A stretch of DNA of 32,714 nt from a bacterium. GTDB lineage: Bacteria; Krumholzibacteriota; Krumholzibacteriia; JACNKJ01. Below, piece by piece: positions 26,615 to 32,041 of the stretch. The notes under the pieces were generated by a model. The model saw nothing but the letters and a program-made list of their open reading frames with translations, was not told the origin of the DNA and ran no database searches. Position 1 is the stretch's first letter; each line of letters begins with the position of its first letter. The stretch lies in NCBI GenBank assembly GCA_016873475.1, contig VGXI01000014.1:1-32714 (forward strand), written 5' to 3'. Position numbers and translations under genes: made by a program.

Positions 26615-26874
26615 CAGAGCTCTCCTTCGGGCCAGGCATCGACGATGCCGACGACGATCGCCCGGATCGGGGCCGCCGGGTCGCGCAGCACCTGGCGCGC
26701 GCCGTTGCCCTCGTCGAGGACCAGCACGGTCTCGCCGGCGCCCGCGCCCACGGCGTCCAGCGCGATCAGGTAGCCCGGCCCGTCCAGGCGCTCGACGATG
26801 AGCAGTCGCTGCCCAGCCACGACCCGATGATGGATGGTCGAGGTGCAGCGGCCCGCCACGCGGCCGAGGATCAT
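26614..26874 (-). CDS. BMC-P shell vertex protein (EutN/CcmL family), copy 3
   Basis: An 86-residue pentamer-forming shell protein that would cap microcompartment vertices. The N-terminus MILGRVAGRCTSTIHH matches the EutN/CcmL start. AVGAGAGETVLVLDEGNGAR is the conserved core with GNGAR in place of the usual GSSAR, and IVVGIVDAW is the C-terminal strand. Its ATG overlaps the stop of the preceding BMC-P gene by 4 nt. Three different BMC-P genes in one operon is typical of some sugar-phosphate BMCs. Confidence 0.88.
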   Translation of the reverse strand: MILGRVAGRCTSTIHHRVVAGQRLLIVERLDGPGYLIALDAVGAGAGETVLVLDEGNGARQVLRDPAAPIRAIVVGIVDAWPEGEL

Positions 26875-27254
26875 CGCCGACCGCCGCGGCCGGGCCGGCG
26901 CGGTGCGGGCGTGGTCTCCGACGATACGAGCGGCGCGAGCGGCGCGAGCGGCGCGGGCTCGCCGCGGCCCGGACCTGTCTCGTCGGCGTCGAGGGCGTGC
27001 GTGTCCACGATGCCGACGATCGCATGATCCACGGGCACGAACCAGGGGTCAAGGGCGAGGGCTGCTTCGCGGCTGGCGACGAAGTAGACCAGCTCGCCGG
27101 GGCCGGCCATCCGCGTGCCGTCGGCGCAGACCAGCGGGCGCCCCGCGGGCACGAGGTGCTGATCCAGCGGCTGCACCCAGAGCATGGGCACGCCCGCGAG
27201 CCCGTCGGCGACGCGGCAGGGCACGAGCGTGCCGATCACGCGCGCGAACTGCAC
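26871..27254 (-). CDS. BMC-P shell vertex protein (EutN/CcmL family), copy 2, with C-terminal tail
   Basis: A 127-residue EutN/CcmL-family protein with the fold ending at VPVDHAIVGIVDTH (about residue 86). It is divergent: the usual GSSAR loop is replaced by a YFVASREAAL region. About 40 extra residues follow the fold. These are polar and Pro/Arg-rich, with a short PAPLAPLAPLV repeat and a basic RRPGRGGRR end. The tail could face the lumen or cytosol and bind cargo, but nothing shows this. GTG 27254 overlaps the BMC-T stop by one base (TAGTG) with GAGGAGG upstream. I judge family membership likely from fold-wide motifs and operon position. Confidence 0.78.
   Translation of the reverse strand: MQFARVIGTLVPCRVADGLAGVPMLWVQPLDQHLVPAGRPLVCADGTRMAGPGELVYFVASREAALALDPWFVPVDHAIVGIVDTHALDADETGPGRGEPAPLAPLAPLVSSETTPAPRRPGRGGRR
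26928..26954 (-). repeat. Three tandem 9-bp repeats inside the BMC-P copy 2 tail
   Basis: GAGCGGCGC occurs three times in a row on the plus strand. On the coding (minus) strand it encodes the APL-APL-APL stretch of the tail. It is probably a local slippage expansion. Confidence 0.6.
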
Positions 27255-27922
27255 TAGCGCGCCTCCTCGTCATGGCGATCGCCGTGACCGGCGATCGCTG
27301 CTGCCCCGGCTTCTGTCTCCGCATCCGGCGGCGCGAGCGGGGCGCAGAGGGCGAAGCGGCTGCCCGCGGCGAGCAGCGCGCGCAGCGTGTCGTCCAGGCG
27401 CGGGATCAGGGCCTGTTGCGTGAGGCGCGGGCCGAGGCGCGCGGCGCCGGCGGCGAGGGCGGCCTCCACTTCGTCGAGCGCGCCGTCGAAGATCGAGAAG
27501 GCCTTGCCGCCCAGGCCGTCGGCCAGGCGCAGCTCGCGCAGCGTGACCGCGCAGGCCTTGAGCGCGGCGTCCGTGGCGCCGAGCAGCGCGGCGCTCGAGG
27601 CGGCCTCGAGCAGGCCGAGCGCCTCGGACTCGGCGCCGCTGCGCGCGCCGGCGAGCGCAGGGCCCAGCGCTTCGTGGGCGTCGGCGAGAAGGATCTCGTC
27701 GTGCAGGCCCGCCGCGGCCAGGCCCTCCGCGTGCGCCTCCACCACCGAGGCCGTGCTGCCGCCCAGCAGGACGAGGAAGCGGCCCGGCTGCACGCTGCCC
27801 GCGCGGATCAGCGCCACGGGCGCGCGCTTGAGCATGCGGTCGGCGGCGGCCACGCCCGCCGGCACGCCCGCGTACTCGAGCAGGGCGAGAGCCGGATAGC
27901 GCGTGTCGTTGGTCGTCACCAT
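27254..27922 (-). CDS. BMC-T shell protein (tandem BMC domains), copy 2
   Basis: A 222-residue protein with two BMC (Pfam00936-type) domains in tandem: one at about residues 9-68 (ALALLEYAGVPAGVAAADRM, then VALIRAGSVQPGRFLVLLGG) and one at about 100-165 (ALGLLEAASSAALLGATDAA, then GKAFSIFDGALDEVEAAL). Such proteins assemble as pseudohexameric trimers that tile shell facets and can carry larger pores. Both domains start with the LLE-type strand in the same topology. A charged, low-complexity C-terminus follows. It begins 2 nt after the aldehyde dehydrogenase stop. The subtype (single-disc versus stacked) cannot be decided from sequence alone, although the arrangement looks like the single-disc type. 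Confidence 0.85.
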   Translation of the reverse strand: MVTTNDTRYPALALLEYAGVPAGVAAADRMLKRAPVALIRAGSVQPGRFLVLLGGSTASVVEAHAEGLAAAGLHDEILLADAHEALGPALAGARSGAESEALGLLEAASSAALLGATDAALKACAVTLRELRLADGLGGKAFSIFDGALDEVEAALAAGAARLGPRLTQQALIPRLDDTLRALLAAGSRFALCAPLAPPDAETEAGAAAIAGHGDRHDEEAR

Positions 27923-27924
27923 CG

Positions 27925-29379
27925 CTAGACGATCCGGAAGTGGTCCACCAGCACGCAGCGCCGCTCGCGGCTGAAGCTGTGCGGACCGGTGAGCCCCTCC
28001 CCGGTGGGCGAGGCGATGCTGAAGCTCGCGTAGCCCTCGCCGCCGTGGCCGAGCCCGGCGGCGCAGGGGCCGTTCTTGACGAAGATCGACGTGTTGATTT
28101 CCCGCGCCATGCGGCTCAGGCGATCCAGGCGCCTCGAGTGCATCGCGGCCGAGTGGCCGCAGCCGTGCTCGGCGCGCACGGCGAGATCGATCGCCGTGTC
28201 GGCGTCGGCGACGGCGACCACGGGCAGCACGGGCAGCATCTGCTCCGTCCAGACCAGCGGGTGCTCGGCGGGGACGGGCGCCACGAGCAGGCGCGCCGCC
28301 GGATCGCAGGGCGCGCCGATCGCGGCGAGGATCGCCGGCGCGTCCTGGCCGATCCAGCGCTTGGCGATGACGCCGGGCTTGCCAGCGCCGCGCAGTTCGT
28401 CGAAGAGCAGGGGCGTGAGGCGCGCGATCTCGCCCGCGGTCAGCACGCGCGCGCCGTGCCGCTGCATGGCCGCGAGCAGGCCCGCCGCCGCCTCGGCGAC
28501 GACGAAGACCTCCTTCTCGTCCACGCAGATGATGTTGTTGTCCAGCGATGCCCCGAAGGCGATGTCGCGGCCCGCCGCGTCGAGGTCGGCCGTCTCGTCC
28601 ACCACCACGGGCGGGTTGCCCGGCCCCGCGCAGATCGCGCGCTTGCCGCTCGCCATCGCCTCGCGCACGACGCCCGCGCCGCCGGTCACCACGAGCAGGC
28701 GCACGCCCGGGTGGCGCATCAGCGCCTGGGCGCTGGCGATCGTGGGCTCGGCCACCGCGGTGACGAGGTCGGGCGGGCCGCCCGCGGCCAGCACCGCGCG
28801 GTGGATCAGCCGCACGGTCTCGGCCGAGCAGGCCGCCGCGCCCGGATGCGGGTTGAAGACCACCGCGTTGCCGGCGGCGAGCATGCCGATCGCGTTGCAG
28901 ATCACCGTGCTCGTCGGGTTCGTGATCGGCGCGATCGCCGCGATGACGCCGAAGGGCGCGGGCTCCATCAGCACGAGGCCGCGGTCGCCGCTCGCCGCGC
29001 GGGGCGCGAGGGCTTCGGGGCCGGGCGTCTTGAGGGTGACGAGGCGGTTCTTCAGCTCCTTGTCGGCGGCGCGGCCGAGGCCGGTCTCCGCGCGGGCCAG
29101 TTCGCCCAGGCGCGCGGCCGCGGGCAGCAACGCCGCGCGAATGGCGTCGACGAGACGCGCGCGCAGCGAGGGCTCGGCCGCCGCGAGGGCGCGGAAGGCG
29201 CGGCCCGCCGCGGCGACCGCGCCGTCGACATCGGCGTGGATGCCCTCGCCGAGCGCCGCCCCCGGGGGCGGCGCGGCGGCGGGCGCGGGCGCGGCCGCCG
29301 GGGCGACGCCGGCCAGGCCGAGGCGCAGGGCCAGCTCGCCGGCCAGCGCCTTGATCTGGGCCTCGCTGAGGGCGCTCAT
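27925..29379 (-). CDS. CoA-acylating aldehyde dehydrogenase, BMC-encapsulated (PduP/EutE type)
   Basis: A 484-residue enzyme expected to convert acetaldehyde, NAD+ and CoA to acetyl-CoA and NADH inside the microcompartment. It matches PduP/EutE: PFGVIAAIAPITNPTSTVIC, TGGAGVVREAM, the active-site Cys285 in SLDNNIICVDEKEVFVV, and the C-terminal GHGGEGYASFSIASPTGEG. Residues 1-24 form an amphipathic helix (SEAQIKALAGELALRLG), followed by an Ala/Pro linker, the usual form of an encapsulation peptide. ATG 29379 is chosen over GTG 29388, because the short start gives the helix at the extreme N-terminus; neither has a strong ribosome site. Acetaldehyde would come from the DERA domain encoded upstream. 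Confidence 0.93.
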   Translation of the reverse strand: MSALSEAQIKALAGELALRLGLAGVAPAAAPAPAAAPPPGAALGEGIHADVDGAVAAAGRAFRALAAAEPSLRARLVDAIRAALLPAAARLGELARAETGLGRAADKELKNRLVTLKTPGPEALAPRAASGDRGLVLMEPAPFGVIAAIAPITNPTSTVICNAIGMLAAGNAVVFNPHPGAAACSAETVRLIHRAVLAAGGPPDLVTAVAEPTIASAQALMRHPGVRLLVVTGGAGVVREAMASGKRAICAGPGNPPVVVDETADLDAAGRDIAFGASLDNNIICVDEKEVFVVAEAAAGLLAAMQRHGARVLTAGEIARLTPLLFDELRGAGKPGVIAKRWIGQDAPAILAAIGAPCDPAARLLVAPVPAEHPLVWTEQMLPVLPVVAVADADTAIDLAVRAEHGCGHSAAMHSRRLDRLSRMAREINTSIFVKNGPCAAGLGHGGEGYASFSIASPTGEGLTGPHSFSRERRCVLVDHFRIV

Positions 29380-29400: not shown

Positions 29401-29700
29401 CTAGTCATCGCGACCTTTCCGATAGCGCTCCTCGCCGCCGATCTCCCAGCTGTCGACGATCGCCATGATGACGGCGTCGCAGGGCCGGTTCTCGGTGGCT
29501 TTCGTTTGCCGGGCGGAGCTGCCGGTGGCAAAGAGCACCTTCTCGCCGATGCCGGCGCCCACGGCGTCGGCGGCCACCACCGTGCCGCCCGTGGGCGCCC
29601 CGTCGGGTCCGAGCTGTCCGAGCAGGAGGAACTTCAGCCCCTCCAGGCTCGGCTCCTTGCGCGTGGCCACCACCGTGCCCAGCACGACGGCCAGGTTCAT
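29401..29700 (-). CDS. BMC-P shell vertex protein (EutN/CcmL family), copy 1
   Basis: A 99-residue pentameric vertex protein and the most canonical of the three copies. The start [21 protein letters not shown], followed by [29 protein letters not shown] and [12 protein letters not shown], is standard EutN/CcmL, including the GSSAR loop. It sits between BMC-H (7 nt) and the aldehyde dehydrogenase (21 nt). Confidence 0.93.
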
Positions 29701-29707
29701 GGCGCGC

Positions 29708-30007
29708 CTACTTCGACTTGGCGGACTCGGCCTGGCGGCCGAGCGGGATCACCATGTCCACGTTGGCGTGCGGGCGCGCGATGATGTGCACGGCGACCAG
29801 CTCGCCCACGCGCGCGGCCGCGGTCTGGCCGGCGTCGCAGGCGGCTTTGACCGCCGCCACGTCGCCGCGGATCACGGCCGTCACGTAGCCGCCGCCGGTC
29901 TTCTCGTAGCTGACCAGCTCGACGCGGGCCGCCTTGACCATGGCGTCGGCCGCTTCCACCATCGCGGGGAAGCAGCGCGTCTCGATCATGCCCAGTGCAT
30001 CTGCCAT
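29708..30007 (-). CDS. BMC-H hexameric shell protein (PduA/EutM type)
   Basis: A 99-residue single-BMC-domain protein forming the hexagonal facet tiles. Canonical features are [20 protein letters not shown], Lys25 at the hexamer edge, the pore loop Lys36-Thr-Gly-Gly-Gly40 (KTGGG where PduA has KIGSG), [18 protein letters not shown], and the conserved HIIARPH. Ala or Gly-rich loops suggest a small polar pore suited to a phosphorylated sugar or similar metabolite, which is inference. The frame is open further upstream, but ATG 30007 is the family start. It is the only BMC-H gene in the operon, so it should be the main facet protein. Confidence 0.95.
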
Positions 30008-30042: not shown

Positions 30043-30678
30043 CTACCCGTTCTTCTCGTTCGTGCGCCCGCTGAGGGCCTCGATCGCCGCGACGGCGGCC
30101 GGCCAGGCCGCGTCGATGTCCCGCTGCTCGCCGCCGAGATACACGCGCCCGAAGCTGCCGAAGGCGCGCACCTCGAGGATGTTGATCTCGGCCGCCTTCT
30201 CGGCCTCGTTCGCGGCCAGCGCCGCGTAGGCCGCCGGCTCGCACTCGAGGATGTACAGGCTCTCGCCGGCCAGGATCATGTTGCCGTGGCGCATGCGGTT
30301 GATGAGCTGCGTCTGGTAGTCGTCCACGGCGCGGATCACGGTACTCGAGAGCACGCGCGGCTTCAGGCGCTCCTCCTCGCGCACCTGGAGCGCCTCGAGG
30401 ATGGCCCGCCCGGCCTGCCGCACGTCGGCCTGGCTCTTCGAGTGGATCTCGAGCATCCCGTAGAGCCGCTCCACGATCTGCATGCCGGGCGTGACCTGCG
30501 TCGTCTTGAGGGCGATGTCGGTGACGCGGTTGATCTCGATCCCCGGCGAGACCTCGACGAAGAGCGCCGCCTCGTTCGCCGTCGGCAGGAAACCCTGCGC
30601 CACGGTGGCGAGGAAGCTCGCGAACTGCGGCTGCAGCCGATCGAGGAACACATAGGCGCGCAGGTCGACCAAGCCCAT
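30043..30678 (-). CDS. BMC-T shell protein (double BMC domain), copy 1
   Basis: A 211-residue shell protein that starts [20 protein letters not shown] and contains [58 protein letters not shown] and, in the second half, [27 protein letters not shown]. This is the pattern of a double-BMC protein related to those found in planctomycete and Haliangium-type BMCs, with domains of unequal sequence. It differs strongly from the other BMC-T in this operon. ATG 30678 is preferred over 30705 because a GGGGGGACAGG element precedes it and the extra residues are basic and unalignable. The stop of the RpiB-DeoC gene is 10 nt upstream. Confidence 0.85.
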
Positions 30679-30688
30679 CCTGTCCCCC

Positions 30689-32041
30689 CTAGGCCGGCGC
30701 GCCACTCGCGCGCAGGGCCTGTTTCGCTTCCTCGACGATGGCGACGCTCGCGCTCGCGCCCAGGCGCGTGGCGCCGGCCGCGAGCAGGCGCTGCGCGGCC
30801 GCGAAGTCGCGGATGCCGCCCGAGGCCTTGACCCCGAGTCCCGCCGCGCGCACTTCCGCCGCCATCAGCGCGACGTCGGCCACCGTGGCCCCGCCGCCGC
30901 CGAAGCCCGTCGAGGTCTTGACGAAGTGCGCTCGCGCCTGCACGGCGAGGCGGCAGGCGGCGCGCTTCTCACTATCAGTGAGCAGGCAGGTCTCGAGGAT
31001 CACCTTGCAGAGCGCGCCGCCGTCGCGGCAGGCCTCGACGACGGCGCGGATGTCGGCGAGCACGGCCTCGGCCTCGCCGCCCTTGAGCGCGCCGACATTG
31101 AGCACCATGTCGATCTCGCGGGCGCCCTCGCGAATCGCCCGCCGCGCCGCGAAGGCCTTGGTCTCCGGCTGGTCGGCGCCGAGGGGAAAGCCCACCACCG
31201 CGCAGGTGGCGACGCCGCTCCCCGCCAGCTCGGCGGCGACCAGGGGCGCCCAGACCGCGTTCACGCAGGCTGCGGCTGCGCCCAGCGCACGCGCCTCGAC
31301 GGCGAGGCGGCGGACCTGCTCGCGCGTGGCGTCGGGGCGCAGCAGCGTGTGGTCGATCGCGCGCGCGAGGGCGGCCACGCTGAGCCCCGCGGCCGGCGCC
31401 GCGGCAGCGAGCGCCGCCGCCGGTCTCGCGCCCGCCGGCCCCGACCCGCCCCCGGGGGCGACCAGGGGCGCCAGCTCCGCGAGCAGGCGCTCGAGATCGG
31501 CGCTCGAGAGCGGCAGGCCCGCCCCCGCGCCTGAAGAAGGCGCCGGCTCCGCCGGAGTTGTCGCTCCCCCGGCAGAACCGGCAGGGATGGCCGCACGGCC
31601 TCCCGAAATCGTGTCGCCCTCGATCATCGCCACGCGGCGCTGGTGGCGGGCCTCGGTGCAGTCGGTCGCGAGCCAGAGGGCGACGATCTGCCAGGCTAGC
31701 TCGGGGCCAATCAGGCCGGCGCCGAGGGTGAGGACGTTGGCGTCGTTGTGCTCGCGGCTGTTGCGGGCGCTGGAAAGGTCGTAGGCGAGGGCCGCGCGCA
31801 CGCCGGGCACCTTGTTGGCCACCATCGAGGAGCCGATGCCCGCCCCGTCGACCATGATGCCCCGCTCCGCGCGCCCCGCGGCCACGGCCTCGGCGACCTG
31901 GCGCGCGAAGACCGGGTAGTCCACGGCTTCATTCGATGAAGTGCCGAGGTCGAGCACCTGGTGGCTCGCCGCGCGCAGCTTCAGGGAGAGCTGCTCCTTG
32001 AGGGCATAGCCGCCGTGGTCCGCACCGAGGGCAATCCTCAT
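30689..32041 (-). CDS. RpiB-like sugar-phosphate isomerase fused to deoxyribose-phosphate aldolase (DERA)
   Basis: A 450-residue bifunctional protein. Residues 1-147 are RpiB-like (ADHGGYALKEQL; GIMVDGAGIGSSMVANK; SREHNDANVLTLGAG with His98; RHQRRV with Arg132). Asp65 and Ala67 replace the Cys66 and Thr68 of E. coli RpiB. Residues 148-219 are a Gly/Ala/Pro linker holding an amphipathic helix, LSSADLERLLAELAPLV (178-194). Residues 220-450 are DeoC/DERA: AIDHTLL, REIDMVLNVGALK (Asp311), Schiff-base Lys375 in FVKTSTGF, and Lys405 in GVKASGGIR. DERA splits 2-deoxyribose-5-phosphate into acetaldehyde and glyceraldehyde-3-phosphate. It starts the BMC gene block; GAAGG is the ribosome site before ATG 32041. 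Confidence 0.93.
   Translation of the reverse strand: MRIALGADHGGYALKEQLSLKLRAASHQVLDLGTSSNEAVDYPVFARQVAEAVAAGRAERGIMVDGAGIGSSMVANKVPGVRAALAYDLSSARNSREHNDANVLTLGAGLIGPELAWQIVALWLATDCTEARHQRRVAMIEGDTISGGRAAIPAGSAGGATTPAEPAPSSGAGAGLPLSSADLERLLAELAPLVAPGGGSGPAGARPAAALAAAAPAAGLSVAALARAIDHTLLRPDATREQVRRLAVEARALGAAAACVNAVWAPLVAAELAGSGVATCAVVGFPLGADQPETKAFAARRAIREGAREIDMVLNVGALKGGEAEAVLADIRAVVEACRDGGALCKVILETCLLTDSEKRAACRLAVQARAHFVKTSTGFGGGGATVADVALMAAEVRAAGLGVKASGGIRDFAAAQRLLAAGATRLGASASVAIVEEAKQALRASGAPA

Follow-up and report, generated by a model that had tools for sequence, protein, structure and literature searches.

Encapsulation peptides (EPs) of metabolosomes are defined as N- or C-terminal (PMC12339742; PMC11157265; PMC8217296). 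An EP has been reported to bind the hydrophobic groove between tessellating BMC-H (PduA) tiles (PMC11157265), and the EP of PduP forms trimeric bundles and condenses cargo both in vitro and in vivo (PMC12339742). Sugar-phosphate-utilisation (SPU) microcompartment (BMC) loci combine a DeoC-type aldolase (pfam01791), RpiB (pfam02502), an aldehyde dehydrogenase (AldDH) and shell genes, according to two surveys (PMC4207490; PMC8217296). In Marinimicrobia, a fusion of aldolase and isomerase was recorded by the first (Axen 2014, PMC4207490). The second described pfam01791 enzymes with EP-like extensions at the N-terminus; these enzymes are linked to HO BMCs and sometimes encoded off the shell locus (Sutter 2021, PMC8217296).

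The stretch of DNA analysed here (the window, 32,714 nucleotides) encodes an RpiB-DeoC fusion, P0001, with a helix, LSSADLERLLAELAPLV, in the linker between its domains. Like the terminal EPs PduP 1-18, PduD 1-18 and PduL 1-20, this helix is an amphipathic segment of about 17 residues, is accompanied by a disordered linker, belongs to a BMC enzyme and is absent from non-BMC homologues. Unlike them, it lies between two folded domains, and targeting, which is known for the Pdu EPs, is predicted here from sequence and a structural model. As residues 178-194 of 450, between RpiB and DeoC, are not a terminus, the helix is called an internal variant rather than a canonical EP. The HO-BMC extensions belong to the same enzyme family and are terminal, whereas the corresponding segment of P0001 is buried within the fusion. 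Thus, the fusion (2014) and EP-like N-terminal extensions of DeoC (2021) are already published, but a targeting helix inside the fusion is not described in the available text of the SPU surveys (PMC4207490; PMC8217296). The internal EP appears to be new; a literature search, whose reach excluded most subscription journals, found no report of one. If a conserved internal EP is real, a free chain end would not be needed for an EP, and docking would be constrained in that both chain ends must exit the groove or bundle. It would also be a natural template for loading two enzymes 1:1 with one tag and, for EP evolution, a case of a terminal tag trapped by gene fusion and lost again along with the shell.

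The fusion protein and its microcompartment locus

On its gene content, the window holds an SPU microcompartment locus of Candidatus Krumholzibacteriota. A DeoC-type pfam01791 aldolase and an RpiB-type pfam02502 isomerase are present, and shell genes of the BMC-H, BMC-T and BMC-P kinds accompany the AldDH at the same locus (Table 1), which is the composition of the published SPU type (PMC4207490; PMC8217296). The fusion gene is followed by genes for BMC-T (Tdp-like), BMC-H, BMC-P, AldDH, a second BMC-T and two more BMC-P proteins, and the same order is kept in relatives of the window's class. The closest named relative, L079, is a Candidatus Krumholzibacteriota MAG whose DeoC domain is identical to that of G024, a member of the window's class. 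A PduL-type phosphotransacylase (PF06130), an accessory feature of SPU loci, had no match in the window's genome (G000). This does not disqualify the assignment, because PduL occurs only in several SPU loci and those of Marinimicrobia likewise lack it (Axen 2014, PMC4207490). Among the matches to solved structures listed, none covers the linker or both domains of P0001.

Table 1. Features of the fusion gene and the adjoining microcompartment locus, in window coordinates
Feature	Coordinates	Strand	Details
RpiB-DeoC fusion P0001, 450 aa	30689..32041	minus	single open frame; PF02502 at residues 3-140, PF01791 at 227-416
RpiB (ribose-5-phosphate isomerase B) domain, residues 1-141	31619..32041	minus	PF02502 E 1e-50; solved relatives 3he8, 2vvr
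Linker, residues 142-217	31391..31618	minus	Gly/Ala/Pro low-complexity outside helix; pLDDT <50 at 143-178 and 192-218; length varies across relatives
Internal EP-like helix LSSADLERLLAELAPLV, residues 178-194	31460..31510	minus	helix 180-194 in model; site chosen by AldDH-tag profile; conserved in homologous fusions
DeoC (deoxyribose-phosphate aldolase) domain, residues 224-441	30719..31372	minus	PF01791; closest solved DERA 8qps, 6d33
BMC-T shell protein, BMC-Tdp-like (type inferred)	30043..30678	minus	weak PF00936 match; directly after fusion in relatives too
BMC-H shell protein	29708..30007	minus	PF00936 E 4e-29; AMVKAA and one further 10-residue stretch like PduA groove motifs (PMC11157265)
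BMC-P shell protein	29401..29700	minus	PF03319 E 1e-28
Aldehyde dehydrogenase (AldDH) P0002	27925..29388	minus	PF00171
AldDH N-terminal EP-like helix LSEAQIKALAGELALRL	29320..29370	minus	23.0 bits (profile of other AldDH tags); 9.3 bits, best site in P0002 (linker-helix profile)
Second BMC-T shell protein, two PF00936 domains	27254..27922	minus	PF00936
Second BMC-P shell protein	26871..27254	minus	PF03319
Third BMC-P shell protein (extent = domain match)	26638..26874	minus	PF03319 E 4e-19

The linker helix and the aldehyde dehydrogenase tags

In an AlphaFold2 model of the fusion, a lone helix spans residues 180-194 (block mean pLDDT 76), with pLDDT below 50 on both sides; these disordered flanks vary in length and sequence. 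The helix is within the 15-20 residues expected of an amphipathic EP helix, and its core, DLERLLAELAP, has a hydrophobic moment of 0.57. The moment of the 17-mer is not outstanding (rank 93 of the 434 17-mers within P0001); it does not discriminate and was rejected as a sole criterion. A preliminary description of the sequence had put the helix at 31459-31512, which is the right place (residues 178-194), the exact codons being 31460-31510 on the minus strand. It had also regarded the linker as low-complexity except for the helix, and had proposed aligning homologous linkers to see whether the helix alone is conserved. The first statement is true of the window protein but not of most relatives; in the alignment the helix is indeed conserved, but so, in most relatives, is a second segment, GPCVGxCPDTARxFIELGA. 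This segment, a short helix at residues 199-207 in the AlphaFold model of L079 (pLDDT about 50-55), is missing from the window lineage, which has lost it.

The AldDH P0002 starts with VRAMSALSEAQIKALAGELALRL, and its tag is the 17-mer LSEAQIKALAGELALRL. The seven identities in 17 ungapped positions reported earlier between this N-terminus and LSSADLERLLAELAPLV were counted again with the same result. In a chance control drawn from the window's proteins only, several unrelated 17-mers also reached seven identities, and against shuffles that keep the hydrophobic/polar pattern the identity gave P=0.058. The BLOSUM62 score of 26 was the best among 4436 window 17-mers (next 20), with P=0.001 for plain shuffles and P=0.017 for pattern-keeping ones. 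Under the AldDH-tag profile described below, the window helix scores 8.8 bits and the next site in P0001 8.2 bits, versus 11-29 bits for the linker helices of most relatives and 2-7 bits for their next site. By these scores, the window helix is a diverged, weaker member of its family. By itself, the window pair makes the match to the AldDH tag suggestive; a verdict from this pair alone was rejected as too weak, the seven identities being unremarkable. Given how weakly the window helix scores, it is the comparison across the family that carries the case and makes it firm.

For this comparison, a profile was built from 35 AldDH N-terminal tags, none of them from the window, and scanned over every whole fusion. 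For 40 of the 41 distinct linkers, which come from six phyla, no other site anywhere in the fusion scored higher than the linker helix, each of the 40 with P<=0.01 against shuffled linkers; the sole failure was L086 (Calditrichia). Reciprocally, a profile of linker helices scored highest within the N-terminal 75 residues in 41 of 49 AldDHs, and the window AldDH, scored separately, likewise had its best site at the N-terminus. The helix stands in register in fusions of Krumholzibacteriota, Gammaproteobacteria, Acidobacteriota, Marinimicrobia, Planctomycetota and Lentisphaerota, and weakly so in Calditrichota. Its form, L-S-[DE]-x-D-h-x-[RK]-h, is constant, whereas elsewhere in the linker both length and sequence differ between fusions. 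Thus, the linker helix resembles the EP of another cargo enzyme of the same locus, and the earlier idea that two cargo enzymes carry the same tag is borne out at the level of family sequence comparison in both directions. The helices of unfused DeoCs (LVEIITREVL type) match the AldDH profile moderately (3-14 bits in the 17 split DeoCs scored).

In the Anaerolineae-type SPU loci L103, L105 and L111, the linker-helix profile scored highest near the C-terminus of the AldDH. The AldDH tag of these loci seems to lie at this end instead of the N-terminus and may have changed ends between SPU subtypes.

Co-occurrence with the shell and origin of the internal position

PF00936 shell genes are found in 41 of 80 Krumholzibacteriota genomes. 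The helix is absent from all 24 stand-alone DeoCs examined from shell-free members of the phylum (L056 and L060-L062 included), which start close to the catalytic domain, and an EP-like N-terminal helix is carried by all five stand-alone DeoCs examined from shell-bearing members (G004, G007, G008, G011 and G018). The preliminary description had named homologous fusions lacking a conserved helix as a refutation; when this was checked, the helix was present in 40 of 41 linkers, and the one fusion that lacks it entirely, that of G075 (linker of 9 residues), comes from a shell-less genome. No PF00936, PF03319 or BMC-type AldDH was detected in the G075 genome, and its fusion gene is flanked by non-BMC genes. 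In the DeoC tree, G075 nests inside the group of EP-bearing fusions; its lack of a helix is therefore a loss, a case that depends on a single MAG (93% complete, 7% contamination). The helix is thus present on BMC enzymes and absent from non-BMC homologues (24 of 24 and G075 lacking it, five of five carrying it). In 19 of 19 further genomes from other phyla that have an extended DeoC without a shell gene nearby, shell genes occur elsewhere in the genome; an EP-like helix was recognised by eye in 17 of these 19, L108 and L151 being ambiguous. Since helix and shell are both inherited, the association represents fewer independent events than genomes, and the clearest contrasts are those of G075 within its genus and of G001/G003 with G000/G002 within the window's family.

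In G004, G007, G008, G011 and G018 (L052, L053, L057-L059 and L071-L078), the gene for the EP-bearing DeoC lies apart from the shell locus. This satellite arrangement is like one reported for HO BMCs.

SPU loci with separate genes (e.g., L090, L093, L097, L098, L101, L103 and L106) encode a DeoC that opens with a helix, of which LVEIITREVLIAL is one example. Between this helix and the aldolase domain there is usually an extension, at whose end stands a motif like VVxAGAxRLxSTLG. In most fusions, a matching segment, CPDTARxFIELGAxRL, follows the linker helix. Because the helix and extension of the unfused DeoC match the fusion linker, this linker is interpreted as an EP plus the DeoC extension. 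Sequence comparison thus makes it most likely that DeoC itself supplied the internal EP, as an N-terminal peptide that became enclosed when RpiB was fused in front of it. A C-terminal EP donated by RpiB was considered and rejected; unfused SPU RpiBs terminate directly after their own domain. We infer that the direction of fusion was the placing of RpiB before a tagged DeoC. The fusions cluster in the DeoC tree, in which two changes of state were counted, and a single origin of the fusion is still conceivable.

In Riflebacteria-type L109 (position 9110 onwards) and in L108, an EP-like helix (MENIVDQIAREVMLKLKSQ in L109) precedes DeoC and is followed by an extra domain of approx. 200 residues and a Cys-rich stretch. 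This is another fusion built on an EP-bearing extension.

Docking, alternative explanations and side features of the two enzymes

Taken together, sequence comparison indicates that the internal helix very probably works like an EP. The explanation held with strong confidence is that it is an EP in an internal position, namely the N-terminal EP of DeoC enclosed by the RpiB fusion and carrying both enzymes. In SPU microcompartments, an EP at its N-terminus would direct DeoC to the compartment; once RpiB had been joined ahead of such a tagged DeoC, the EP and part of the DeoC N-terminal extension would have become the linker, and one EP would carry two enzymes as a fixed 1:1 pair. Docking, probably shared with the AldDH EP, which is of the same type, would then take place in one of two settings: the groove that BMC-H tiles form on the luminal side, or bundles of EPs by which cargo is condensed before shell closure. 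The helix could still dock in spite of its internal position, since it has a disordered segment at either end, and both modes would be compatible with an internal helix if these flanks are as flexible as the fusion model predicts. The window BMC-H contains AMVKAA and a second 10-residue stretch close to the published PduA groove motifs (PMC11157265). We infer that the fusion is docked and encapsulated via the helix.

Which partner the helix contacts admits a narrower reading, in which it drives cargo-cargo association through EP-EP bundles in a condensate formed before the shell, with no direct shell contact. The trimeric bundles and cargo condensation of the PduP EP (PMC12339742), together with the presence of the same helix type on AldDH and fusion, speak for it; the reported binding of an EP to the PduA inter-tile groove (PMC11157265) and the similar motifs of the window BMC-H speak against it. 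It is given a minority share of the probability, and is a variant of the internal-EP explanation rather than its opposite. Of comparably modest standing is a broader proposal, that internal EPs form a natural class in at least six phyla, and that a single EP placed between two enzymes that each form oligomers works as a cross-linking node. With oligomers of RpiB and of DeoC joined via every EP, the fusion might be not just a passenger but also a scaffold on which the cargo condensate nucleates.

Fusion proteins often contain helical spacers, and a helix located between two domains could simply keep the RpiB and DeoC oligomers apart without any role in encapsulation. However, a spacer would have to coexist with the two-way match to AldDH N-terminal tags of the same loci, with a counterpart in unfused DeoC that is N-terminal and spaces nothing, and with the absence of the helix where the shell is missing; it is considered unlikely. 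Still less probable is an internal translation start in the linker yielding a separate DeoC whose EP acts terminally. An ATG does stand just before the helix in a few relatives (L084, L012), in L086 with GGAG upstream, but the 25 codons before the window helix contain no ATG, GTG or TTG, and relatives share no conserved start preceded by a Shine-Dalgarno-like sequence; this candidate is not supported. The least probable reading is that two Leu/Ala/Glu-rich helices of a GC-rich genome resemble each other by chance. It can draw on the unrelated window 17-mers with seven identities and on the pattern-keeping shuffles of the identity count, but not on the BLOSUM62 rank among the 4436 17-mers, and the family-wide match, in 40 of 41 linkers and reciprocally in 41 of 49 AldDHs, effectively refutes it.

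Several features of the two enzymes were recorded in addition. E. coli DeoC ends in Tyr. A C-terminal Tyr is also present in many unfused SPU DeoCs and in a few fusions (L084, L086, L088 and L089), and is absent from the C-terminus of P0001 (30689-30720, minus strand) and from most Krumholzibacteriota fusions. The N-terminal extension of DeoC often contains a Cys pair or cluster (GPCVGSCPD, CxxCxxxCxxxC), seen in L012, L079, most Krumholzibacteriota fusions and the unfused L091, L099 and L106, and lost in the window protein; from its sequence, a metal site or a redox role is possible. In the RpiB domain, residue 65 of P0001 (31847-31849, minus strand) is Asp (VDGAG), versus Cys in the solved C. 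thermocellum RpiB (ICGTG). All 12 aligned fusions have this Asp, and the replacement suggests that RpiB of the SPU type has altered its isomerase chemistry or its substrate.
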